From: Mycteria americana
Taxonomy: Eukaryota; Chordata; Aves; Ciconiiformes; Ciconiidae
Direction: 5' to 3'
NCBI RefSeq assembly: GCF_035582795.1
Contig: NC_134366.1
Location: 173,914,362 to 173,978,361 of the forward strand
Length of the DNA: 64,000 bases
Every line of letters begins with the position of its first letter. The stretch's first letter is position 1. This document shows, piece by piece, positions 46,232-63,623 of the stretch. The notes beneath the pieces were generated by a model that saw nothing but the letters and a program-made list of their open reading frames with translations, had not been told where the DNA came from and made no database searches. Made by a program: the position numbers and the translations under genes.

Positions 46232-49200
46232 TCAGAATTCAAAGTCCTCATCGGCCATATCGATTGCCCAGGCAAACTTCTCCCTCTGCGTCTTGTTGTA
46301 GATCTTCTCAATAGGCACACCAAACTTCTTGCACCTGTGCAGACCACAAGACAGCAGTGGGGATGTGCTACCCATCCCGCTCTGCTCCCACCATAGAGGT
46401 CCTCTCTACTCAGGGTGCAGCATCTTTTACCCATGCAAGCTCCTTAAGAAAGTACCTTTGTGCCACTGTCAATAATGACGTGCAAAGTGACCCCTTCTTG
46501 CCCTGAACCCAGAAGGGACATCCTGCAAATAGTTATTTGCAGCAAGGGAAGCCTCAGCTTTGGACTTTGCTCACCTCCCCCAACACATTCAGGGCTTGGA
46601 CAGGTTTCTCTGGCCAAAGTTTATTCCTTTCCCCCCAAAGGCTCAGGGCTCTGGCATGTGTTTTATCCCCCTCCCCTGTGCTAGGTGACCTGCACATCTC
46701 TAGAGGAGCATCTGCCCCATAGCACGCCCAAGACTTACCAGGCTATGCTAATCCTGGGGTCCAGGTAATTCAGTTTGGACGTGCCCAGAGCTATCTGCTT
46801 GTTTTCCTCCTTGTCTGTGGCCTGGACATTCAGCTTGGCCAGCTGCTCTTCCAGCCGCTTCAACAGCTTCTTTTTCTTCTCCACATTGCTTAGGGCAGAG
46901 GAAGAGCACCACAGACAGCATGTTAAAGGGGAAAAGCAGCAGCAGAGGTGAAATACAGAGCAGTTCTTATCTGCTGCTGCCTGGGAGCATGATGTGAAGC
47001 CAATGAACTTCAGCTCAGAGTAGTCTCTACACTTACCTTAAATCCTGCAAGGCCTGAGCCTAGAAATACTCCAAAATGGAAGATGCCATTCAGCACTAAC
47101 CTATTTCAAGTACTTTAACCTGATAAGACACTTGTGCTTTTTAAATTATTATTACCAAATTTGGGCAAGCACAAAAGCCAGCACTCAGCAGAGACTGGCT
47201 GAATCTCCTCAAATTCAGCCTGAATCTCCTCAAATTCAGGCTCCGTGAGCAACAGCCATCTCTGACAACCTGTTCTGCATCTCAGCAACACAGAGCACAA
47301 GCAGAAAACAAGAAACCCCGGAGCACAACATAAAATACGAGCCTTGTTTCTCTCCTCTAACCTCCTCCTGTCTTTGAGCAGCAAGTCCCATTTGGGCTCT
47401 GGGAGGAAGGAGCAAATTTGAAGAGACACCAAGGAATGACTGCTGCAGAGATCAGACAAGCCACAATCCACCACTCAAGTGTCCCGCGAGAAAACCATGC
47501 ATCAGGGCTAGTCTGTCTATCCCCAGGTCCAACCCCAAGCTAGGCATCCTTTGCACCATGGCATTTGTAGGCTAACTCCAAGGCTGGGTTGAAGTCTGAG
47601 TATTCAGAGAGATGTGCCCTATCCTAAAGAAATCCCCCTGAAGGAGCTCTTTGCAATCCCACTGTTGCAAGGAACCATCCACAAGACCTCCACCCATCTG
47701 CCAGGCTCCCATGGGGCAGAAGGCACCTGGTACCCAACAAGGACACGTCAGTTGTGCTGAGCTGCACGTAGGGTGTCACACCGCACCGTCCCCATCCACA
47801 GGCCCTCTGCAAAAGAGTATTGTAAGGAAGAGTTACTCACGCTTCTGCTTTGGCATCTTTTGTGTCTTCAAGCTCATCTTCAGCTTTTTTCAGCTCTTGC
47901 TGGGCTTCCTCCACCTGTTGCTTCTTGGCATCGATCTGTTAAGGTAAATACAAAGTCAGCCCGTGTTCCTGTCCTCCCTGGAGGTTTCAGCTGCCTCCCT
48001 CTTGCCCTTTCCTTTACCACACCACTCCTCAATTTCTCACCAGCCCTACTCCAGTCCCAACAACTTGCCCCTGCAGCACCTGCTGGAGCTCAAGCATTTC
48101 TTAGCATCTTACAAAAGTTCCTCACAGTACTGACGCCAGAAACATTTGCAGCTCTTGTCTGTTCATCTTGTGCAACTGCACGAGTGACTGGCTCGTGACA
48201 GTGCTGGAGCCCACTGCAAAGTCCCAGGCTCACCAGCAGAGTGTGAACAAAAGCCGAGGACAATTAAAAGTAGTAGTCTGAGGTATTTCCATAGCAGACT
48301 CATGAAATTTCAGCTGGTCCTCCTGCAAACAGCCAGACAGGAAAACCAATTTCCCTGGTCCCAAGCCAACTGTGTCAAAGCTGTGCCATCACACAAGGCA
48401 CCCAGACTGGTCTGAAGTCAGGAAGCGATGAAAACCAAACTCTGTGCCAAGCGTGCTTCATCCAGCATTTGATCTTACCCCATCACTCTCCACCCCTGGG
48501 TTGCCGATATCTCTGTACTGATTTAAAAAAGCCACTATTCCTGGTTTATTCCTTGCCACACTTGATCAATGCAATCTCTTTAGACATCAGGTTATTCACC
48601 TTCTCCCCATCCCCTCCCCCCAAAAAGAGATCAGAGGTGAGATCAGGTCTGGGGGCTCTCAGTTAGTCTGTCTCACCTTGGTCTGGAGGTTTTGCATTGA
48701 CTTCTCAAAGGTTTTCGGTGTAGACCTCTGATGGTTGCACAGGATGGCCACAGCTCTGTTAGCTCGGTTGTAAGAGAGGAGCTTTCCCGCAACATTGTCT
48801 TCAGCTGGAAATAAATGGAAGCATCACTATGTCTCCTTTCTGGTAGTTACAGAAGGCAGGGAACAGACCAGAACAACAGCAAGTTGTTTGCTTTTCCCAT
48901 CCTTTCTCAGGGGAGAGCAATCCTGGTTGTGGAAATTGGTGAAGGATACTTGGAGCATCACTGAATTTGATATTGTGCCTCATCACTCAAGTGTCCAAGG
49001 CAAGCAAAAATAATGCAGCTAACCAGGAATGCAAGGAAGGGGGAAAAAGAAACACTCCCGTCTTGGCTATCAGTTAGTCAGACCATTGCTGAGCAGGTAA
49101 CTATTTCTCACTTAGCATGGTTCCCAACCTGCTGCATGCCCCCGTGGGTTGCATACCACCCTACAACGTGGTGCATCACCTGCCAAGGAGGAGCAGGGAG

Positions 49201-52200
49201 TTCTAGGGACCCCAAGGCAACGGACAGACATGGCTGAGCCCACTGGCCGCACCACGCGGCTGGTGATACCACGAACACTGTTCGTAACTCACAGTTAGTG
49301 AGTGCCTTGAGCTGCTCCTGCAGGGTAATGGAGGCATTGTAGGTCCTGAATACTTTGGCACTCAAACCATCCATCAGACTCTGGAGGTGTCTGTTCAAGA
49401 TGCATGTCTGGAGGAAGGAAGATAGGACAAAGGTGGGGGGGGGAAAAGAAGGAAGAGAACAAGCAGAAGCCAGGACAATAAAGCACTTGCTTTTCAGACC
49501 ATCTTCCGCCTAAACAACCAAATCAGGCATTAAAAAAAGTCTCCTGTAGCTGGCAGATCTACTTGTTGGGTCAGGCACTTATCTACCAAAAACTGGCACA
49601 AATTCCACCTATACCCACAAAGAATTTCTCCGGAAGTCAACAATTTCTGCCCATCTATGTCCAAGAGGACACACGTCTCATCCAATATTACATCTCGCGT
49701 ACATCACATCTGATATCTCTGTTCTACAGAGCACAGGGGGCTGCAGTTGGACTGGAAACAGAAGATGCTAAGAAGAGTCTTCTGGGGTTTGGAGGAAGCC
49801 TTACTTGTACCAAGAAAGCCTATCACAGATAAATCTTATACAACCAGAGAGGAGCAGCCTCTTCAGAGTAAAGATGGGCAAGGGGCTTTGTAGGGGATGC
49901 AGGCAGAGGGGGAGCATGGGTGGCAGCACCCCATATCCCATACTGAGGAAGAGGAGGGAAGAGGTTTTTGCAGGGGAGTAGCTCAGGACAGAAGGCTGCA
50001 GCACATGTCTCCAGCATCCCTGTGCTCCGGCAGCCTCTCACACTTCTGCCGAACCCCGGCAAGGTGCGAAAGCATCAACAGCTGATGTTTGACACCTCTA
50101 GCAACGCCCTGAGCAACATGTGTGTGGGCAGGCCTTCCCCGGCTAAAAAAAACCCCAAGCAGATGAGTTAGAGGAGGGAAGGAGCAGAAAGTCACCTCCT
50201 TAGCAGGGACACGGGTTACTTGTGGGTGCAGGCAGGCAGCCAAGCCTGCATTCAGAGAATCAAAGATGCTACCAGTGCAGAAAGAGGATAGAAAAAAAAT
50301 ATCACAGCATCCCAACAGGGTGTTCAAACAGTTACAGTGATGTCTCTGGAGGGGAGATAGTTAAAACCATGGTAAGGGATGACACTGATGCATCACCACA
50401 GCCTGGGAGCCTGCAAGCTGGACAGGGGTGTCATGGCTTAGCTTCTACTCCCTCTGGGCCATCGGTGCCGTTTCAAAAGCTTAGAAGTGACAACTCACAT
50501 TGAGCCTGTCAAAGAGGTCATCTCCTGGGTCCTTGTTCTTCATGAACAGCTTCAGGTTCTTGAACACCTGAAGAGAAGGAAAGGATGGCCCTGGTCAGGG
50601 ACAAGAAGCAAATTGCTCCCAGACATCTGCTTCATCTCCGTCTGCCTCCTCAATCAGATATATTCTGTTTCAGACTCATGTAGTACACATCCTACCACAC
50701 CACCAACCTTCTCAACTTCAAGGGCTGCTAGTGGGACCCAAAGCCACTGGGGCCACAGGCTGTTTTCCCCCCCATCTCTGCTATCCCTGCCACTCCAGTT
50801 TCCCCACAAACACCATTAAAATAATCTATCCCATGGGCAAAGCAAAAAATAAAATATCAGTAAGGACAGTTCAAGTCTTAATGCCCACCAGTCAACTGAG
50901 GATGCTCCAGCAGGAGGCAGGACTTCTCTCTCATGGTTCATGGGCTAGAACAACCTTGAAAGCCCTATCCCAAAGTTTCTCCCCCTTCTTCAGGCCAGGG
51001 TCAGCACGTGTGCATCCTCATCACCCAGAACCGTTGCATCTCATGCACATGCTGCCACCGTGGTGTTAAAGCACAGGAGGCATCTTTGCAATGGATTTCA
51101 GATGCAGATTTGGGACTGGTGACCACTGAGCGAGCCAAGCCACCCAGTTAACCCTGCACCAAGATTGCCATGCCAGCCGCTGCCTCCATTTCTGCCCCAC
51201 TCACCAGCTTCTCCACTGACACTTTGTTGTAGTAACGGATCGAGTCTTTCCCAAGGAAGTCAAACTCCACCACGTGCTCCTGCCCATCCAGGTTGGGGTG
51301 CAGCTTGATGTGCTCCACGCGCAGAGAGCAGCAGCCAACCGTGTCCGCGGTCTCCCCTTCCTCCTTCTCATTGCCGGCTCGCAGGGCCAGCTAGAAGGAG
51401 ACAAGTTACCCATCCCAGCCCACCACAATTCCCCTTTTCCAAGGTTAATGTGCACATGGACACCAAAGGGAAAAAAAAAAAAAAAAGAGAAATTTTTCTC
51501 AGGACAGTACCTCACTGAATGGCTGCTGGGACCCTGGTAGAAGCCAAGAACTGACTGGCTCCAGCAGAAGATTATTTCACTGCTCTAAGAAACCCTAAAA
51601 TATCCCCCTCAGAATAAAGTTATCCAGCTCTCTGGTGGGGCCTTTGCCATCACACAGACACACACATGCTGGTAAAGTCCGGGAAGGACAGTACAGCTCC
51701 TGTGCTGCCACACAACTTAGTCTTCACACAAGCATCAGCGGATAGTAGGAGTCTCCATCCTCCATGGTCATTGCCAGATGCCTCAGGAGGAGCAACCCTG
51801 GCTAGTACAACCAGCAGGCACCAAAAAAACCCTACAGGGTGGGGTGGATCAGGTAAGCTAAATCCCAAACTCAACCCTGGGGGCCAGGGTGAGGCTGCAG
51901 ATACCTTATCAATGAAGTAGAGGGCCACTGCTCTTTGCCGCTTCTTCATCTCCTTGGACTTCCAATCAGCTCGGTACTGAGCACGGATTTTGTGGACAAC
52001 ATCTTTTAAGCGCCGGGCTACCTCATACTTCTGCCAGTCTTTCTCCCCCTGGAAAGAGAGGCCAAGACCCAGTGCCCCATCTTCATTCCACCCCTACCAG
52101 TCAGACCCTATTCTGGGAACACCTCCAGCATCTAAATACTGCTCAGACCCATTGTTTTCTTGAGAAAAATCTAATCCACGAAGTGGAAAAATCAGAGCAG

Positions 52201-55200
52201 AAACAGCTCATCCAGGGTTTCTGTGGCCTCTGCTGGCTGTGCTGGACCTGGAATCCTGGCCAAGTCTGGGCTGCTTATAGCCTGGAGGCATCCACCACCA
52301 GCTAGCAGCCAGCACACAGCAAGTGAGGAGTCAAGCACTGCACAGCCATGGCCACCACTGCTGCTTGGACACCACCAACACGGACTGACACGATGCACTT
52401 GCTCAGTTGTGCCTAACTTGCATGCAGTTTCCTTCTTTGCTTTGAGGACTGGAAATAGCTTTAAATCACCTTTCCCCCCCCATGGTGTTCAACCCCTCCC
52501 TCCCATGGCACTACAGATGGTGATCCCACTTCCCCCTGCCCTCCCATTTACTGGCATAAATGAATTCAACCCCATAGACTCTGGTTCCTGTGAACCCTCT
52601 CTGCTCCTGCCTGGCTTTCAACAGCTGTCCCTAGACACACACATGCAGCAGGGTACAGGGATGGCTCTACCAGTAGCAATCCATCCCCTGGAACAGGCTC
52701 AGCGCTTAACAATCATCTCTGTACTTTTCCCCTCACCACCCAACGGCATACCAATTAAGTTAGTTTACCCCCTTTTTTGGGGGTGGGGGGGAGTACATTT
52801 TTGTTGTCATGCCACATCTCTGCTTTCCCCTGATCTTTCCACTTGGCAAAGAGCCGGTGGCCCAACAGACAACAGCTCTGCCTGAACCACAGCATAACTT
52901 CAACCTTCAGCTTGGAGCTGGGGTTCAGCATGATGTACTTCAAAGTGTTCTGGATGTTTTCTGTCCACGAGGCCAGCCAGGTAACAGTGTTGTCGAAGCG
53001 CACCTCCTTCCACTTGTGCCCTTCTGGTGGCTCAGGGATCTTGGAGTCCCTGTGGGCAGAGCAGGGTTACAGCCCTCAAACCATGAAGGAGAACAGGAAC
53101 AGGTCATCCACTCAACTGCTTCTTCACAGTGAGCCAAGGGTGGTCAACACATTGCAGGATTACTTACAGAAAACATACAGCCCACCCAAAATTGCTCCAC
53201 AACATGATCAGGTCTTTATCCTTTGGATGCTGGGGACAATGGGAAAACTTGCTGGGCTGGTGGGGAGTGTTTTGAATCAAGGCCACAAGGTCTTTGTACG
53301 GGTGGTTTAAGAACAATCCAACTCACTTAACTGAAAGGGCAAACACTCTTAATCCAATCACTGCTTTTCCTCCCTCCAGTGAGGATCCTGATGCTTCCAG
53401 CCAGCATGAGGGACCCATAAAATGAGGAGGAATGGCTTGTTTGGAAGAGGAACACAAGAGAAGTACAGAGTTGTCCCTTCTTTGGAGAGACCATAGGAGC
53501 ACTGCAGTGTTTGCAGTTGATGCCAGGTGAACAGTGCAGACACCAGTGAGAGATGGTAGCTGCTGAACAGCTTCCCTGGCCACTGTACATCCACAGAGAA
53601 ACTGGAAGTCAGACCTAACTGCAAAGCCAATATTTGGAGGTGACCAGGAGGTGACAGAAGGGCTCCAGTGAGTTCAAGGCTGAGGGTGTGCAAAGCAGCG
53701 ATTGTAGGAGATAACAAAACCCCACAGCAACTTGAGGCAGAGAAAATGTGCTGTTCACCCCAGTCCCAAGAGCAGCTCATCTTTTGGGAGCTCAGCTCTT
53801 CCTGAAGGGACTCACTTGCTGCAGTTGATGACAACATCTTCTGGCATGATCCTCTTCTTCAACATGCCCATTTTGGGGTGGTCACCACGTCCACGGAACA
53901 GCCCCGGTGGCTCAGTTTTGAAGTTGCCTATCTTCTCCCGGTGCCCATCCAGGATGCAATACCCATACTCCTCCTGGATCTTATCTGCTTCTTCCTTCAG
54001 TTTCTGAAACGAGCACCATCCCACCATCACCCCACAGGATGAAAACAAAACCCCGTGACTCGTGCCTGCCTATCGCTACCCTCCTTCCCCTGGAGAAAGC
54101 AAGGCTGGAAAAGCAGAGCTCAAAGGGTTGGAGGAAGAGGTGAGCATGGGTCCAAGTCCACTCCCAACAAATGGCTCATCTCCACCCGCTTTGCAAACCC
54201 TCAGTGATGCTGTCCCAGCATGATGTGCTAATGGAACAAGCCTGTGTGCTACCAGCTCCTTAGCAAGGTCCACCATCCTCTGGACAGGGCAGGACCCCAA
54301 ACCATGGTCCGAGGATGACTGGTATCCTGCAAAGCCATGAAACATGCAGCACCTGCAGATAAACTTGATGAAAAGGGGTGTGATGGTCATGGAGACAGAG
54401 CTGGTCCAAAGGCCAAAGAGGTCCCAGGTCAGGGCATAACACCAGGAAAGGAGACAAGCAGGAGTCAAAATAAGCCAAGCTGGTCCCAAACCATATCAGC
54501 CAGCCCCAGATGTCATAGGAAACAGTCCTCACCTGCTTCTCCTCTTTGGAGAGTGCTTTCCGTGCCTCACTTTTGTCCACAAAGTACTTGTGGATCTCCC
54601 TGAAGTCACACTTGTCCAGGTCCTTGATTATCTTCTGCTCCTTTGAGGTCATCTCCTGAGTAAGAGATGAGAGGCTGGGTAAGGCCAGTAGGCAAAGCCA
54701 ACTCCACACAGAACTGCTGCCTATGCCTCTGCTTCACAGAAAAGGAAATAGAGACCCACATGCCAGTTCTTCAGAAAAATCAGAAGGAACCAGCCACCCC
54801 AGCTATCCCAGCCACATCCACCCCAGGGCAGACAAAGCTGCCATGGTAGGAAGCCAGGCTGCCTCTGGACCCCTGAGCCTGCACCCACAGAGAAGCAAAA
54901 CACAGCCAGCTGTGGGGCAGAGCAACCTCTAACCTCTGCTGTGGAAACAAGCGGTCCCCAAGCATGGCTGCAAGCAGCTTGCAGGGACTGCGGAAGCAGA
55001 ACCGACAGTAACTGGGGGCATGTAAGCTTGGCCTAGTAGGGGTCTTGCTTTTGTTTGGATCCTGAGCTGTGGTGCTGTGGGACCATGAGGTTAATCCTTC
55101 AGAGGTACCTATGCCCCAAACCATTTGTGAAGCTGTTTGCAAGACCCAGCACCTGCTTTCTTAGGTAGCATCCCTAAAACTCAGAGGGAGCACGAGTGCC

Positions 55201-58200
55201 AACATGAAGCCCTCAAGGATGCTGCAAGACAGCAAGCCCCAGCCCAAACCCACAAGAAGCAAGGAAATAAATCGTATTATTTATAAACATACAATTATGA
55301 GATTCTAAATTAGAAACTAAGCCATAAAAAACAAACTCATCCCCTCCATCCCACATTGCAGCCTAGGGTCTGTCCGGGGATGACAGGTTTAAAGCTGAGT
55401 GTTTAATGCAGAGGATGGACAGCAAGGAAGCCCTCACAGGGAAGGTACCTTTCTCCAGTCATTGAAGAAGTTATTCTGGAAGATCTCCTTGGTCGTGTAT
55501 TCATGATCAAGCATTTTGGCGTAGAAGGTGGCAATTTCCTCCGTGGCCAGGCTCAGCTTCAGGGGTTTCCCTAGGAAGGGAGAGGACCTTTAGCATCAGT
55601 TACGGGGACAGCCCAACCCCACAGCCCCATGCAGTTGTTCAGCGAGTCCCCATGCTCACAGTGCCAAAACAGGGACAAGGGGTGAGAACAGACACTGGCA
55701 AGACTTCAGCACCCCCCTGCACCAGGCACAGCCTTGTCCGCGGATCAATACCCAGAGCGCTTGGCACAGCAGGATGCTGCCGCAACCCATCTGCAATCAC
55801 ACACTTCATTTTCTCTTCCAGGAGAGTGGAAATCCTGATTTATGCTAAGGTCACTGAGCCACAGGGCTTTCAGCAGCCACCATGCCATGATGAGTCCCAA
55901 ACTTCTGGCTCCACAGGACAACACAGAAAGGTTTGTTTTCTGACCGTGATCACTTCCAGGACCATGCTGAATAGCCAGCATCCCACTTGGAGAGGTTTTA
56001 TCTCAAATACTTTCCCATGCAGATGGAGCAATCATGGGAAGCTCAAAGCTAAGATTTGTGCAACAGATACAGATGCAAGAGCCTCTCGTGGTTGTCCAGT
56101 GGATCTTGGATCATTTCTTGGAGGTGGCAAAGCCACCGTCCTCTCCTGAGTTCTTTGACTAGAGCACTTAAGTCTAGTGAATCCAAGGAACATCTTGGCT
56201 CTTCCTAGGAAACCAATACTTGGAAATAGTTCTTCTAGGCAAGCTGCAGGAAAAGCACACTGCAGAGCTTCAGGGGATGGTTCAATCCTACCTGCACCGG
56301 ACACTGTAGTTTTTGGGGTTCCTGACCTCCACCTGAACTGGACATGGTGGGTCACAGCCTTATAGCAGCCCCATGACAACCTACATACACCAGTTCAGCC
56401 GCGGTCCCTTCCTACTTGGGGTTGTTGCCTGTCCACAAACACTTTTTCATCCAGGAACGTTGACACCTTTTAGCAAACAAGCCAACGTCACCCAAGATCC
56501 CAGGCCAAAGCCACCAGCCTAGATGCACACAACACACAGATGGGTCTCCAACAGCTCAGAGGCCACAGAGCAGGTCTACACCCTATGCAGGACTACATAC
56601 AGCTGCCAGGGCTCCTCCTCAGAGAGCCAAAAAAAGTCTCCAACATCCCCCTCGATGTCCCAGCAGCGCCCTCTGGTGACATCGTTGCCAGACACCTCAT
56701 TTCCCCAAATTGGCCTTTTTTTTTTTTTCTACTGTAAGAAAACCGACAAGGTTTAGGAAGCCCTAGTGAGGGGGCTGAGGAGGACCAAGACCCCATGGGA
56801 CTGCAGTCCCCTTCCATCTCTAGCATCCCTTGGTCAAGCCCCACAGTCCTTCTTGCCTCCCTTCCCTGATCTGTCAGAAAACTGTTCAGGGATGGAGCCG
56901 AGAGCAGGGAGGAGATGACAGCCCAGCAGGCATGGTGGGAAACCAAGGAGTACAGCAGAGACCTGATCGGCCCTGCCAATCTCTCAGCCCCTTCACCGAT
57001 GCACCGAGTTGCTGTAAGGCAATGTGTGGCAGCCCTGGGGACAACATCAGGAGCTGTGACTGAGAGCTTGGAGCAACCCAGCCAAACCCTGCAACGTCTT
57101 AGAGGACAAGCAACATGTCAGTCACTGAGGCCATGGGACAGGCAAACTGCATCTCATCAAAAGTAAAACCCCATTTTCCCAGCTTGCAGTGAAACTGGGC
57201 ATGAGCTGACTTAAAACTCAAACCTCAAAGCATCTTAATGAGGACAAAATGTTTCTTTCCCTCCCCCTCAGTCCATCTTTGCAAGAGGTACACAAGGACT
57301 TCAGGCAACAGCACCAAGATGCATTGCTTCCCCTCAAGAAACTTCGGGTCCAGCCCCACCACTGCATGCCCCATGGCCAGGAGAGGCTGTGAGCAGAGGT
57401 TCAAGTCCCAGATCCATACGTGGTTGCATTACAGCATCCTAAAGCCAGCTGCAGGCAGCTGCATGGAAGCCCTCACCCTGCCCAGGGTGCTCCACACAGA
57501 GGGGATGCATGAAGCACCCTGCAACTGTCAGGGGTTCATTAGCTCCCCAATAATCCCATAACTCCCACCACATCCAAAACCCTCCAGCTTTAACCCCCAG
57601 TTCAGGCTTTATCCAATGGGATATTTAGGCCCCTCAATAATTTGTGGTCTGCAATACTCTCCCCTCCATACAAGAGAAGATAGCGGCTCTTCGGCCAGGC
57701 AGAGGACAACTCCACATGCCCCAGCTCCCATTGCAAGGCAGACGTACCATCGTAATAAAACTGCACATCATCAGGAAGCGGCTCATAGAGGGGGGCGAAG
57801 TAGGGTCCTCTGTGCTCCAGTTGAGTCCACTTTACCCCATCTTCTTTCTTCTCCTCTTCCCACCTGGGACAGATGCACAGGGACTCGTGAGAGCATCCCT
57901 ACCCTGCGGTCTGGGACCTTCTCTCAAGGTCACACCAGGAAGATGTTCTGTGAGCAGCCAGGGTTGCCACAAAACCCAGGTGAAATCCTGTTGTCTCTGC
58001 TACTGCCTCAGTTTCCCCATTCTTTCAAACAAGGAAGACTGCAATGCAACCCAGGGAAAGGTGTTTTGAGGAAGGGGATGTGCTCGGTGCAGTGACGTGG
58101 AGGAACGCAGGGGGAGAGCAAAAGGATGGATGGGTCAGCCAAATCCACAGGGACAGGCACAGAGACCCCACCGCTGAGCCACAAAGGTTGCTCAATTCAC

Positions 58201-59124
58201 ACCAAAGAGGCTGCAAGGGCTAAAACACTCCCCCCTCTCCTCCCCAGACCTCAATGCATTTTTTTTTTTTTTAAAACCACACAAAAAAGCTCATGTGCTT
58301 CCAGAGGAGGAGCTCACACCACATTCATGGCTAGGAGACCACCACCCCATACTACTTACACCTAAGATTTTATTTACATTAAAATCATAAAGCACCTCTC
58401 CTCCCTGCAGAGCAATTAGGATTTTAGAGTCACCACAAGCCTTAGCTGAGAAACAATTATTTTAAAAGAGTTAAAACAAAAGAAAAAAAAAATAATGAAA
58501 ACACCCACCCTGAAGAGCAGAGGGAGAACATTAAAAAAAAAAAGATAACCCAGGTCAGGGGCACAAGAAGCCCACCAGAGAAGTTTGCTGATGGCAGTGC
58601 ATGGGACAGGCAAGAGATTTGCACCCTGCGGCTCGGTGCCAGCCAGGCACCTGCCCATTAACCCCAGCATCTCTGGGAAAACAAGAGTTGCTGGGAAAAC
58701 ACGGCAAGACTTCACGCCGGGAAAATAAAACCCCTGTGTTTCTTGCTCAGCAGTGCCCCGGAAGTATTTCTGACTTTTCTCCTCCCCACGGGAAGCGGGG
58801 TGGAATAAATCAATCGCATCAAAAGGTGCATTGTGCCAGGAAAACATAGAAAAGAGATATTAAAACAAACCAACAAAAAAAAACCCAACAAGCTACACAA
58901 AACTTGGCTGAAAGCATCTCAGAGACAGGCAGCCACAAGGGTGATACGTGGGATGCGGCAAGGGCTCTGTCTCTCCTCTCAAACCCACGCCGTCCCTCAT
59001 CCCGGCAGAGCATCGCCCGCACTCACCTGCCGCAGCCCCTCGAACCTGGCCAGAGGCAAACGGGGGCGAGCCAGGGCCGACGGACCCTGCGGCCAAGCAA
59101 CGAGGAGGCAAGACACCGGTACAT
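46232..59124 (-). CDS. TOP1MT: DNA topoisomerase I, mitochondrial (14-exon, 593-residue form)
   Basis: A type IB topoisomerase that relaxes supercoiled DNA by transient 3'-phosphotyrosyl cleavage; with this first exon it should act in the mitochondrial matrix. Exons are 59027-59124, 57748-57863, 55449-55570, 54533-54655, 53816-54003, 52905-53049, 51905-52048, 51205-51390, 50499-50567, 49293-49407, 48677-48804, 47841-47935, 46739-46888 and 46232-46334. Phases agree throughout, and the 1782-nt sum is an exact frame. Residues 1-33 are the presequence; the core starts [12 protein letters not shown]. The catalytic set is Arg316 (LALRAGNE), Lys360 (FLGKDS), Arg418 (KVFRTYNAS), His460 (CNHQR) and Tyr551 (SKLNYLDP). 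Tyr551 is 42 residues from the C-terminus, as in human TOP1 and TOP1[17 protein letters not shown] and GYCILDGH point to TOP1MT rather than TOP1. The exon 6 donor (GTTGAA) is weak; a site 6 nt downstream would add two residues. Confidence 0.96.
47199..47240. repeat. 21-bp direct duplication
   Basis: CTGAATCTCCTCAAATTCAG occurs twice head-to-tail in a TOP1MT intron. Copies are identical except for the last base. Confidence 0.85.
59027..59124 (-). CDS. TOP1MT: TOP1MT mitochondrial first exon (targeting presequence)
   Basis: The exon begins with an ATG in good context (G at -3) and encodes [18 protein letters not shown] and 14 further residues before a consensus GTGAGT donor. It has no Asp or Glu and seven Arg counting the junction codon, typical of a mitochondrial presequence. 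It ends in phase 2 with AG, which pairs with the leading G of the next exon (57863) to give Arg followed by WEEEKKEDG. Human TOP1MT has the same arrangement, with a basic presequence joined directly to WEKEKHEDG. The sequence is CpG-richer than its surroundings. An out-of-frame upstream ATG at 59153-59155 could act as a uORF start if transcription begins above it. Confidence 0.8.
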
Positions 59125-59288
59125 GCCACCGACCACCCCCGGAGACCCTGAGCATCTTGTGCTGGCACCCTTGCTACCCACCAGGGCACGGCGGTGGCGG
59201 TGCCCAAGGCATCGCCATGAGGAGCCACCGTTGCGTCCAAGCAGTCCAGGTTATGGCACTCCCCACGTGCCAAGGCAATGCAGCCTTA

Positions 59289-59301
59289 TGGGAAATGTAG
59301 T
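59289..59301 (-). promoter_or_regulatory. ZNF143/STAF-type promoter motif of the mitochondrial TOP1MT transcript
   Basis: The minus strand reads ACTACATTTCCCA, matching the ZNF143-bound ACTACANNTCCC promoter motif. It is about 165 bp upstream of the presequence ATG. A perfect E-box, CACGTG, lies at 59264-59269 between them. Together with the CpG-richer exon this marks a TATA-less housekeeping-type promoter internal to the longer transcription unit. Confidence 0.6.
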
Positions 59302-59304
59302 CCC

Positions 59305-60165
59305 GCATGTGTTTCGGGGCAAATCTGCTGCAAATCGAGCTGATGCTACATACTGGCCTCTCGCCTCTGTGCCAGGCTCCAGCTCCCCCCAAACACGGCA
59401 TTATTTGGCAAAAAAAAGCTCCACAGTCCCACTTTTCATGCCACCCTGTGCCCCGCAAGAGCTGTCCCAAAGGTCCAGGCACCCATGGGCATCCCTGTCT
59501 GGGATAACACCCTAGCAGCTCCCTGCAGCCCGGGTTTGTAACAGGGTCCAAAGCATCTAAGCCCCCTAAATGCTCCTTCTCCGTCCCAGATATTGGGGTG
59601 CTCTGGGAGAGAGTGACACCAAGTGGCTAAAACGACTGCTCCCTGCCACCTCGACAGAATACAGCATCCATCAGCCCCACTCATACATCATTTCCCAACG
59701 CTCTCCTGCTAAAAATCTTGCCTGGATCATCCAAAAACTGCTGCAAAGGGGGTGGGGAAAAAAAAAAATACAGCCCCTTCATATCCTCGACAACTCCCAG
59801 TGTCTTGGAAACTGTTTTATTACAGGGGGTTGTGGGGATCATCTCCTTCCACCAGCCACGAGCATCTCCCTTCCCTGGCTGGGCACCAGCAAAGCCATTT
59901 CAGGAGGAATATATGTATTGTATATACTGTTACAAGAATAAAAAAAAAATACAAATACTATTGTGTATTCAGGACCTCCCATTATCTCTCATCCCCTTCC
60001 TCCTGCCAAGTGTGCCAAGTTCAAGGCTTAAGAAAAACATAGCAGAGCAGTTAGAAATAGTAATAAAAAAAGCATTTTCACAGTTTTACCCTAAGAAATA
60101 AAACTAAAACCCCCAACTGAATTAGTGTTAAACCTACCCACAGGTCAAAGGCACACAGGACACTT
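59305..60165. other. Intron of the long TOP1MT form and upstream flank of the mitochondrial promoter
   Basis: No coding exon is seen. The region lies between the internal promoter and the donor of the Lys/Glu-rich exon. It is AT-rich toward 60 kb, with several short A runs. Confidence 0.5.
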
Positions 60166-60167
60166 AC

Positions 60168-61066
60168 CATTTCCACTTGTTTTCTGTCTCTTCTTTCTTT
60201 TCTTCCTCTTTCTCCTCCTTTTTAGCCTTTTTGTTGTTCTTTTCTTCTCCTTCTTCCTTAGATCTCCTTTTCCGGGTTTTCCCTGGGGTCTCATCCTCTT
60301 CACTATTCTCCTTGATCTTCTTCCCCTTCTCTTTTGTTTCCTCTTTTGGCTTTTTCTTCTTGATTTTCCACTTTTTCCCTGCCTTTCCCTCCTCCTCCAG
60401 CTCCTGCCCAATCTCTGCGCTCTGGGTCTCTCCCCATCTTTCATCCTCTTTCTCATCCACCTCCTCTCCCTCCTCCTTTACTCCTTTCCCATCTTTGCTT
60501 TCCTTTCCCACCCCATATCTCTCCTCCAGTTCACCTCCCACTCCTTTCTCTCCTTCCTCAGTCTTCTCCAGGTCTTGCTCCTCTTCCAACATTTTTTCCT
60601 TCTTTATCTTCTTCTTCCCCATCTTCTCCTCCCCCTCCATTTTCACCTTCTTGCGCTTCTCTGCTTTTCCCTTCCGCTTTTGCCTCCCATCACCCTGTCC
60701 CTGGGTACTGCTGCTCCCTCGCTTGGCTCTGCCCCATCCCGCTGCCCGATTCCCATCCCCATCAGCACCCTCCTCCTCCTCGATGCCCTCCATCACATCC
60801 CCAAGACTTTCCTCAAATTCATCCTTCTTGCTCCCTCCTTTTCTCAGCAACCCCTTTTCCTGCTGCTTCCTTTGCTCTTGCTTCTTCCCTCTTTCTTTTT
60901 TCCTTTTCGGGTCTTGGGCACCCCCTTGCTGCTGTGGGACAGGGGGGTCTAGCTCCTTCTCCTCACCCTCCCTCACAGTGGTGATGGCCACCTCCATTTC
61001 CAAAGCCCCATGCTCTCCAGAAAGGGATGCAGCCCCACCAGCAACATCATCATTTGGCTCTGGGAC
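60168..61066 (-). CDS. TOP1MT: Alternative TOP1MT exon encoding a Lys/Glu-rich N-terminal domain
   Basis: An 899-nt open frame with a good polypyrimidine tract and CACAG acceptor at its 5' end and a consensus GTAAGT donor at its 3' end. It starts in phase 0 and ends in phase 2, so it joins the exon at 57863 exactly in frame. The junction reads KWKW|WEEE, identical to the linker motif of nuclear TOP1. The roughly 299 residues are almost all Lys, Glu, Arg and Gly, with several basic clusters of nuclear-localisation type (KKWKIKKKKPK, GKTRKRRSK, KKAKK). Nuclear TOP1 has a similar disordered charged N-terminus, spread over several exons. Mammalian TOP1MT lacks it. Failure to splice would end translation at once, because the donor reads W-TAA. 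The frame strength and junction make it real coding sequence; how often it is used is unknown. Confidence 0.75.
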
Positions 61067-63442
61067 CTGTGGGAAGCAGCCAGACAGGAAGAAAGGTTGA
61101 AGCTGGGAAAGGAGAGCAATTATCCCAAAGCCCAGGCACATGGAGAAGGTTCTAAAGGATGTGCCCCATGCAGAATTGGGGCCAGAGGGTGACAGTTCCC
61201 CTTGAGTTTCCTACCCCAACTCCAGCCTTGGTTACCGAGAGCTGCTGTCCCACTGCAGGTCCTGCTCTCCAGGGTTTGCACTGTGACCTACAACAAAAGC
61301 ACAGTCACTTCTCACTGCATTGGTGAGCAGCAGCCTCCACCTTTTACAGGCAAAATTAGGGGATCATTCCCAAATGATCCCATGTTTCCCTTCGAGCATG
61401 GCAGCACTCCAGGTGCTACAACAGATGGAGATATCCTAAAGCAGTAGTGGCCGGCCCCCGTAGGAACTGGCCCCAGGTTGCAGTTTATGGGATTAGGAAG
61501 CTCAAATGAGCAGGACCACAAGGTCTCCAGACCAAATGGGGAGGCCTCAAGGAAATGTCCCCAGGGACACCTCTGCCCAGAGAAGGAGACAGGTTTGCAA
61601 GGATTGGCAGCATCAGTAGAAAGCAGGACAGAGATGGTATCAGGCCGAGCATTGTGGACACACTGGAGGAGGAGACCTTGTGATGGGACACATCTCCTGG
61701 GACTGCGGGGACAGGCTCCCCCACCTCTCGTCTCCCGAGGAGGCAGCCTGAGCATTGACACAATGGGGAAGGACACAGCCTCATCATCACAACAAGCTGC
61801 AAGACCAGGAATGTCCAGATCCGTGACCTCCACCATCAGGAATATGGGTGGGGAACACAGGAACGTTTCCCTTGGTCAGCAAAGAGGTCAGGGAGTTCCA
61901 TGGGACAAGCAAAATTATGAAGCACCAACCTGCTCTTATAAAATACTTTCTCCCAAGGCTTCTTCAAGCCAGGGATTTGGGAACCTCATACTTTGAGTTG
62001 CTCATGTTCCAGAAAAGCAAAGCAAGAGATGAATGAGGGAGTAGCATGCACAGCCGAAACCAAGCCTACATCTTGTAGGTTGAGCCTACATCTCCACAGG
62101 GTTGAACTGATGGTGTCCCCTCACCCACAGGGAAACTCAGGGCTGTCCCTGCTTGGTCATTGCCACCTCCCAACTGAGCGAGATGCCTGCCAGGCTGCAG
62201 AGCATCATATTCCCAGCTTGTGATCGGCACCACCACAAAAAAAAAAACGAACTTATCCAGGCCAGCAGGTCAGGGCAGCAGGTAAAAAGCAACCAGAGCC
62301 ACATTCCTCCAGCCCATCCCAGAGAAGTGTGGAGCTGAGCTCAGGCCCTTGCACCAGCCCATGGGTCAGACCCATTGGCCTGCCTTTCCCCCTCCTGGCA
62401 CCCCTCAGCAGGGCCAGTTTGAAAGCATGGCCAGTTGCCCTGATGCCACCCAGGAAGGTGCTGGGAAGCCAGCTTTCTCCTCCTAAGGAGGGTGGCGACA
62501 GCTCTCCTGCATGTCCAGGTGAGCACAAAGAGAGCAGAGCCACAATTTCTGCTTTTAGCCAAAACATCCCGCAGACAACATTTCTGCAACAGAAAGGGAG
62601 ATTTTTAGCCCTTTTCTAAAAGATCATTTAGGCTGATGCTAAATTGCCAGGCTGTGGGACATCAGAGCAACACAGGGCTCAGGAAAGCCTTCAAGCCTGC
62701 TTGGGATGGAGGCAGCAAGTTCCCAAAAAAACCAGAGGCTGGATGCTTTTTCTGTACAGCTGGAGCATGCATTACCCAATCTCCACTAAACTCATTAGGG
62801 CAAATGGCCCAACAAAACACTCTCAGCCCCTCCAATCTCATTAGCAGCCGAGCACCAGCACCTTCATGACTCAGAAGGCAAAGTCCTGCCACCTTTCGGG
62901 ATCAGCTCCTTCCCCAGAAGATCTTATTAGAGGCCTCTCACCGGACATGAAAGCCCCTGCCTCTAAGACAGAGAGGATTAGCCTGCTAAGGGACAGCTTT
63001 ATGAATTCAGCTTCCTATCTCTGCCCAGATCTAGCATGGGGCAAGGAAAAGAAACACCTTTTTCCCAGGCTTTGCAAGGCTGGTTGTCCCCACTAGCATT
63101 TCCCCACCGCCTACCTCTGTATTTATGTAGGTATGTGCATCTGAGCGATCGCACCCTGCTGACTCAAGCATCCTTGGGGAGGTTGGATGGGACCAGGAGC
63201 CTCCCTCTCCACCCTCAAATCCCAGGATGGGGCCTCAAATTCCACTTGCGATGTTTTTGGCAAGCTTTAAGGTCACTGAAGACACCAGGACATGGCCAAG
63301 CTGCCCAGTGAAGGCATCAGCAGCAGAGTGGTCCCAGTGATACAGGACAGAAAACCAGGGCTGTGCAACCCCGTGGCAAGAAGAGAAAGGACAAATTTCC
63401 AGTTCTCTGGGCAAAAACCATTCAGAAAGCAGCCCAACTTAC
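61067..63442. other. Intron of the long TOP1MT form, no gene seen
   Basis: No further exon is recognised between the Lys/Glu-rich exon and the 59-nt exon. Open frames on both strands here have no domain or splice support. Confidence 0.5.
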
Positions 63443-63501
63443 CTTGAAGAGTCTTTCAGCCCCACTGATGGCGCTTGGTGGAGGGTTGATTTGGTCTCCT
63501 C
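63443..63501 (-). CDS. TOP1MT: Probable small upstream coding exon of the long TOP1MT form
   Basis: A 59-nt stretch bounded by a TTTCAG acceptor and a consensus GTAAGT donor. It encodes GDQINPPPSAISGAERLFK and ends in phase 0, which fits the phase-0 start of the Lys/Glu-rich exon. Its 5' end needs one base from the previous exon (phase 1). No clear homology to a TOP1 exon is visible, so the call rests on splice sites, phase and position. Confidence 0.5.
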
Positions 63502-63619
63502 CTGAAAGATATTAACAGCGTTGATCTGGGAGAGGTTAGCTGGCATGGGTACTCCAACAGCACCATCACTCCCAAGCAATCACCCGGCCCCTGCGATGGC
63601 AGCCAGCCAGGCCACATAC

Positions 63620-63623
63620 CCAT
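63620..63623 (-). CDS. TOP1MT: Candidate start codon and first coding exon end of the long TOP1MT form
   Basis: The sequence GACATGG followed by a GTATGT donor places a start codon in strong context right at an exon end. Splicing ATGG to the 59-nt exon gives MGGDQINPPP in the correct phase, with an in-frame stop just upstream of the ATG. This would complete a protein of 881 residues with its active-site Tyr at 839. The exon is supported only by these signals; the real first exon could also lie beyond the window. Confidence 0.35.

Follow-up and report, generated by a model that had tools for sequence, protein, structure and literature searches.

The stretch of DNA analysed here, 64,000 nucleotides from Mycteria americana (hereafter the window), carries a TOP1MT locus on the minus strand with 13 intact core exons, all of which have canonical splice sites and lie in a single reading frame. 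Core exon 1, common to both forms described below, was placed at 57748..57863 by its splice sites and frame. Core exons 2-13, located by tblastn, splice sites and frame, span 46232..55570 (exons 2-5 at 55570-55449, 54655-54533, 54003-53816 and 53049-52905; exons 6-9 at 52048-51905, 51390-51205, 50567-50499 and 49407-49293; exons 10-13 at 48804-48677, 47935-47841, 46888-46739 and 46334-46232, the last containing the stop). The catalytic core is intact by Pfam (Topoisom_I_N, Topoisom_I and Topo_C_assoc), and an Rfam search at gathering thresholds gave no match in the window or in sequence L009. The core accepts either of two N-terminal exons, 59124-59027 in a short form or the charged exon 61066-60168 in a long form. 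Both end in phase 2 at GT donors and both fit the AG acceptor of the core exon at 57863, as an earlier note on this DNA had claimed.

The first exon of the short, mitochondrial-type form (59027..59124, minus strand) carries its own ATG and encodes a 33-residue peptide with seven Arg and no acidic residues; similar starts are found in the relatives P0022, P0024 and P0025. Translation of the model that joins this Arg-rich exon to the core yields 593 amino acids, the length given in the earlier note. That note had also held that the two forms must have separate promoters because the charged exon, at 899 nt, is not a multiple of three; however, since the mitochondrial exon has its own ATG, the frame alone decides nothing. 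A somewhat better argument, although still a slight one, is the CpG-rich stretch at 58751..59500, a candidate short-form promoter that extends across the mitochondrial first exon (GC content of 0.59-0.62 and CpG observed/expected of 0.57-0.66 in two 500-base windows).

The long form required a revised gene model. This model comprises 20 exons joined by 19 GT-AG introns in one frame and encodes a product of 1008 amino acids, of which a Lys/Glu-rich N-terminal domain of 448 amino acids is encoded by seven coding exons. Its first ATG lies past the window end, at extended coordinate 66653 (C2:173981014), and three further N-terminal coding exons on the same strand are also beyond the window end (66337-66238, 66110-66034 and 65803-65713, extended coordinates). 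Within the window, the domain continues on the minus strand with exon 5 (63443..63501, 59 nt), read as EETKSTLHQAPSVGLKDSS, which has AG/GT sites and is 80% identical over 20 residues to turkey P0005. Exon 6 (61215..61287, 73 nt, in-frame SQCKPWRAGPAVGQQLSVTKAGVG) likewise has AG/GT sites, is 75% identical over 28 residues to parrot P0017, and closes the frame when included; a waterbird frameshift, which we had considered, was rejected on this ground. Exon 7 is the charged exon (60168..61066, 899 nt, VPEP...KWKW), which passes from phase 0 to phase 2 between AG/GT sites. The earlier note had instead proposed an ATG at 63623, a direct junction from 63443 to 61066 and a product of about 881 amino acids. 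A donor at 63619 does yield an open frame for that arrangement, which we nevertheless regard as highly improbable: in related bird proteins, the matches to exon 63501-63443 are all in another frame, and the sequence of the 73-nt exon lies between it and the charged exon. Thus, exon 63443-63501 stands as a coding exon, but in the EETKSTLHQAPSVGLKDSS frame rather than the one read as GDQINPPPS. The resemblance of an M(G)GDQ start at 63623 to the MSGDQ of TOP1 was rejected as well, because the bird protein alignment shows another frame.

Could the upstream exons be a decaying relic, or a transcript without protein function, with an open purine-rich exon having misled gene prediction into most of the long proteins? 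Most of the relatives are automatic predictions, and their predicted starts vary, those of P0001 (shearwater), P0003 (shag) and P0004 (king penguin) falling within the charged exon. Such a relic would fit the rapid divergence of the charged exon, over which goose P0002 is 57.7% identical, compared with more than 90% for the core in many birds among the matches listed; the models P0036 (quail) and P0058 (swallow), in which this exon is used in a different frame or splice, point the same way. Nevertheless, four observations make a relic or artefact quite unlikely. First, the charged exon has no stops in its coding frame and seven and 16 in the other two, and none of 2000 dinucleotide-preserving shuffles left any frame open. 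Second, the seven exons are in frame and have canonical sites. Third, the exon 3/4 motif occurs in 29 of the 37 N-terminal domains examined, from frogs to mammals, the remaining eight lacking the pattern, against a maximum of two in shuffles. Fourth, uninterrupted long-type proteins were found in other species on contigs of 7582 (P0099) and 2151 (P0086) bases, which look like spliced RNA. Bird proteins align along the charged exon.

Long TOP1MT proteins are predicted, among the matches listed, in birds, turtles, crocodilians, lizards, monotremes, marsupials, three placental clusters, frogs and newts. A KWKW-type junction was present in 69 of 120 relatives among those matches, a ratio biased by a query that contained the charged exon. 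In Pogoniulus, Xenopus laevis and the tammar wallaby, long and short proteins are listed on contigs of equal length and are nearly identical in the core tree. The exon structure, the many predicted orthologues and these same-species pairs all support a single TOP1MT gene that offers two alternative N-termini. Judging from these predictions, the long form is neither specific to birds nor absent from mammals, for which the earlier note had recognised the presequence form only. To our knowledge, no long TOP1MT form is known in human. With the N-terminal 115 residues of the colugo form as query, two clusters, colugo and Equus, were returned from 37 candidates, and no primates. Because the same search missed Tamandua, which has the long form, the missing primates are weak evidence of loss. 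When the Tamandua long form was the query, with words drawn from its low-complexity N-terminus, six proteins were recovered from 7997 candidates.

The relationship to nuclear TOP1 was examined with a midpoint-rooted core tree of 25 rows. Bird and human TOP1 grouped with support of 100/99, and the TOP1MT rows, drawn open, had 89/88; the core of the window sits in the bird TOP1MT group (100/100) and outside the TOP1 group, and the long-form relatives included likewise group with TOP1MT, not TOP1. The charged exon ends at KWKW|WEEE, where nuclear TOP1, on contig C14 of this genome, has its intron at the same place, in the same phase and with the same junction sequence (AAATG|GTGGGAAGA). We also considered taking the VPEP that opens the charged exon (VPEA in C14) as proof of homology over the whole exon, and rejected it: the TOP1 exon begins earlier, and the case for homology therefore rests on the KWKW junction.

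It might be argued that the long form is produced without acting as a nuclear topoisomerase, being instead cytosolic, or carrying a domain for regulation, storage, or RNA or protein binding. No counterpart of the upstream TOP1 exons in C14 (MSGDQLHNDSQ and IEADFRAN) was recognised in the TOP1MT N-terminal domain, in keeping with such a role. We consider it unlikely, however, given the TOP1-type KWKW junction, the Pfam-intact catalytic core and the abundance of basic clusters: the N-terminal domain of this locus contains 13 K-K/R-X-K/R sites, whereas shuffles averaged 4.3 and one of 1000 had at least 13. A caution on this count is that NLS-like patterns arise easily in Lys-rich sequence.

We therefore favour, with a probability of roughly 0.7, the reading that bird TOP1MT makes two type IB topoisomerases with one catalytic core, a mitochondrial enzyme of 593 amino acids and a nuclear-type enzyme of 1008. 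Transcripts starting at about 59.1-59.3 kb would have the short presequence exon first and give the mitochondrial enzyme, whereas those starting at extended 66.65 kb or above would skip it and join the seven coding exons of the TOP1-type domain to the core. Both exon sets with their splice sites and frames, the tetrapod homology of the long domain and the intron position shared with TOP1 can be read directly from the genomic and predicted protein sequences. Both RNAs are presumably made in the stork, each form probably from its own promoter, and the long enzyme would act in the nucleus, its short counterpart in mitochondria. In the simplest account, the long domain would be an inherited TOP1-type N-terminus, retained as the mitochondrial first exon arose.

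How does this locus compare with known systems? Like other vertebrate TOP1MT genes, it has 13 core exons, a short, putative presequence exon joined before WEEE and a core that groups with TOP1MT; unlike TOP1MT as usually described, exclusively mitochondrial and lacking a long N-terminal domain, it adds seven exons encoding a nuclear-type N-terminus. The TOP1MT N-terminal domain is given as 49 amino acids in the accessible text of PMC10081982. Nuclear TOP1 shares the charged Lys/Glu-rich domain ending in KWKW at the identical intron position, but is a separate gene (C14) whose upstream exons are not recognisably alike and whose group excludes the window core. TOP3A is a type IA enzyme. It resembles the window locus, whose two N-termini are predicted from sequence, in being a single topoisomerase gene whose nuclear and mitochondrial products have different N-termini (PMC3834834, PMC12718117, as far as the available portions go); however, TOP3A relies on different translation starts within one transcript, according to the portion of PMC3834834 available, whereas the stork locus would use alternative first exons. 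For yeast, a single TOP1 gene has been suggested to serve both genomes, nuclear and mitochondrial, and the accessible text of PMC10081982 describes no alternative first exons; the stork, by contrast, has a second, nuclear TOP1 gene. A point against a nuclear form is that, in the available part of PMC3834834, where human TOP1MT was used, the protein is reported not to interact with nuclear chromatin. No long or nuclear-type TOP1MT form is described in the listed titles and the portions covered of the open-licence literature, where the enzyme is presented as exclusively mitochondrial.

TOP1MT serves in the literature as an example of a duplicated gene whose product was redirected to mitochondria (PMC2790464) and is described as the topoisomerase confined to that organelle (PMC6514783), in the portions of these sources available. 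Should the nuclear-type form prove genuine, the duplicated gene would have served both compartments for hundreds of millions of years, and what has been learned from human and mouse TOP1MT may not transfer to birds, reptiles and frogs. It is an even question whether TOP1MT was ancestrally a two-compartment enzyme, with a long form that has persisted from the tetrapod ancestor onwards in amphibians, reptiles, birds, monotremes, marsupials and some placentals, and with a derived loss behind the mitochondria-only enzyme of human. If so, many vertebrates would have two nuclear type IB topoisomerases.

The TOP1MT gene lies on the minus strand of C2:173914362-173978361, in a genome of 1.35 Gb. Its core comprises 13 exons running from 57863 to 46232 on that strand, with AG acceptors and GT donors, a single reading frame and a last exon that ends at the stop codon. 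Joined to the exon at 59124-59027, the core would yield the short form of 593 aa, as the earlier note had proposed, and the Arg-rich, acid-free character ascribed to this putative mitochondrial exon was likewise borne out, with 7 Arg and no acidic residue among 33 residues. The starts of P0022, P0024 and P0025, relatives from other birds, closely resemble this one, and a CpG-rich stretch at 58751-59500 (CpG observed/expected 0.57-0.66) covers the exon. Three topoisomerase I domains were found by Pfam in the protein, all above the cut-offs, and the active-site residues R, K, R, H and Y named in PMC10081982 are readable in it when placed by eye.

How is the charged N-terminus of the predicted long form encoded? 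The charged exon at 61066-60168 is open: its own frame contains no stop, and the other two contain 7 and 16. Every frame of 2000 dinucleotide-preserving shuffles was interrupted, by 10.3 stops on average. The earlier model, which led from an ATG at 63623 into this exon, stood only in part: its path is open for 881 codons, but homology to bird proteins contradicts it. A protein search with this 881-aa model scored 8000 candidates, 1847 of them at E <= 0.001; among the best 120 of these 1847 matches, the closest relatives are bird proteins, in agreement with the earlier note's statement that the DNA is from a bird, and many TOP1MT proteins carry long N-termini. When the upstream parts of ten such proteins were aligned back to the DNA by tblastn, the matches of the bird proteins, on the minus strand, covered the charged exon, exon 63501-63443 (which they read in frame EETKSTLHQAPSVGLKDSS), an exon that the earlier model had missed (about 61287-61215, reading SQCKPWRAGPAVGQQLSVTKAGVG) and upstream exons at about 66337-66238, 66110-66034 and 65803-65713, where coordinates above 64000 denote the window extended by locus L009. 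Turtle and alligator proteins matched the upstream stretches only, and the platypus protein gave no match at the threshold used. The first exon, 66653-66610 on the minus strand (MGVSRAGGVKNSSS), was found by pattern. The spliced long model has 20 exons and 19 GT-AG introns, with fitting phases and no internal stop, and encodes 1008 aa, including an N-terminal domain of 448 aa. Upstream of the gene, L009 also contains a G/C-rich minisatellite of approximately 47-bp units (length by eye) at about 70.55-71.0 kb; the adjoining sequence, at 69.75-70.75 kb, is strongly CpG-rich.

In the literature consulted, TOP1MT is described as exclusively mitochondrial, with a targeting sequence in an N-terminal domain of 49 aa (PMC10081982), is treated as a relocalisation after duplication (PMC2790464) and is stated to be unable to interact with nuclear chromatin (PMC3834834). 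No description of a long form was found in the portions of the literature searched; sequences of this kind are nevertheless public, since NCBI and UniRef carry them as products of automatic prediction. Among the best 120 of the 1847 matches, 69 bear the KWKW-type junction, at which the charged exon ends before the WEEE core start, 39 are of the mitochondrial type and 12 of neither, a long-to-short ratio that is biased to long forms because the query carried the charged exon. A simple pattern served to assign the 39, among which are partial models and no fewer than two misfits: P0053, where an insertion follows KWKW, and P0058, which reads the charged exon in a different frame. Among the 12 are the presequence-like P0106, P0112 and P0115, the nematode TOP1 P0041, alligator P0079 and P0080, which lack the charged exon, and models whose start lies within the core. 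Within the same 120, hosts of the KWKW type are birds of many orders, turtles, an alligator, a crocodile, lizards, platypus, echidna, marsupials, frogs and newts, together with placental clusters from Tamandua (6 members), Equus (34) and Galeopterus (6).

Predicted start sites of the long form vary, P0001, P0003 and P0004 beginning inside the charged exon. We compared the window's domain with 36 of the 69 KWKW-type proteins, hand-picked for apparently long N-termini and group spread; the 37 domains measure 344-839 aa. EKPLQEN and its variants, mostly followed by ISSS, span the exon 3/4 junction in 29 of them. Over 500 rounds of shuffling the count averaged 0.1 and never exceeded 2, figures that serve as a guide, the pattern having been written after the sequences were inspected. 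The motif is absent from eight (Pezoporus, whose VKPLQEN is one letter off, Chloebia, Equus, Xenopus laevis, Mixophyes, Pelobates and two newts). A bipartite-like basic pattern lies near the domain end in 20 of the 37. At the exon 3/4 junction, IISSSLK and IISRSSLK distinguish the two Alligator mississippiensis isoforms P0079 and P0080, and also P0032, P0034, P0043 and P0070 from P0051, which suggests a 3-nt alternative acceptor. In both alligator isoforms the N-terminal long exons reach the core directly (TESWSRGR|WEEE), and the choice of exons may therefore not be strictly either/or.

Long and short proteins occur on contigs of identical length in Pogoniulus pusillus (P0006/P0050), Xenopus laevis (P0091/P0112) and Notamacropus eugenii (P0067/P0076), and in a midpoint-rooted core tree of 25 rows each such pair is nearly identical, as is that of platypus (P0063/P0071). 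The tree unites bird and human TOP1 (100/99), next to which stands a long-branched fish protein; a second group (89/88, drawn open) takes in the 21 TOP1MT rows, and human TOP1MT pairs there with Galeopterus, which has the long form (97/94). By BLAST against human TOP1 and this bird's TOP1MT core, 4 of 122 proteins score higher on TOP1: the nematode, the fish, Xenopus tropicalis (942 versus 939 bits) and Hymenochirus (900 versus 890 bits). Xenopus falls within the TOP1MT group of the tree, from which Hymenochirus was left out. Two long-type entries of 'lgn' source are uninterrupted and sit on short contigs: P0099, which is close to the newt Lissotriton, has 1399 aa on a contig of 7582 bases, and P0086 has 636 aa on one of 2151 bases. 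Given the many exons of the gene, they have the appearance of spliced RNA, or else of a retrocopy, as do the short-type P0048 (2432 bases) and P0052 (2219 bases).

Two further TOP1-family loci lie elsewhere in the genome: TOP1 itself on C14 and, on C8, a TOP1-like locus that has decayed. The latter (about 45932300-45956460; L024, L017 and L025) contains stops. Its pieces, which are spaced as if by introns across 24 kb, match 7 of the 13 core exons in order (4-8, 12 and 13), exons 9-11 being without a match; the locus resembles an ancient unprocessed duplicate. In TOP1, AAAAATGGAAATG|GT marks the end of the last N-terminal exon and AG|GTGGGAAGAAG the start of the next one, a junction identical to that of TOP1MT in the window. 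The upstream TOP1 exons (MSGDQLHNDSQ; IEADFRAN) are without a recognisable counterpart in the TOP1MT domain. On the simplest reading, a TOP1-type N-terminus was inherited and then diverged, and the intron preceding core exon 1 acquired the mitochondrial exon.
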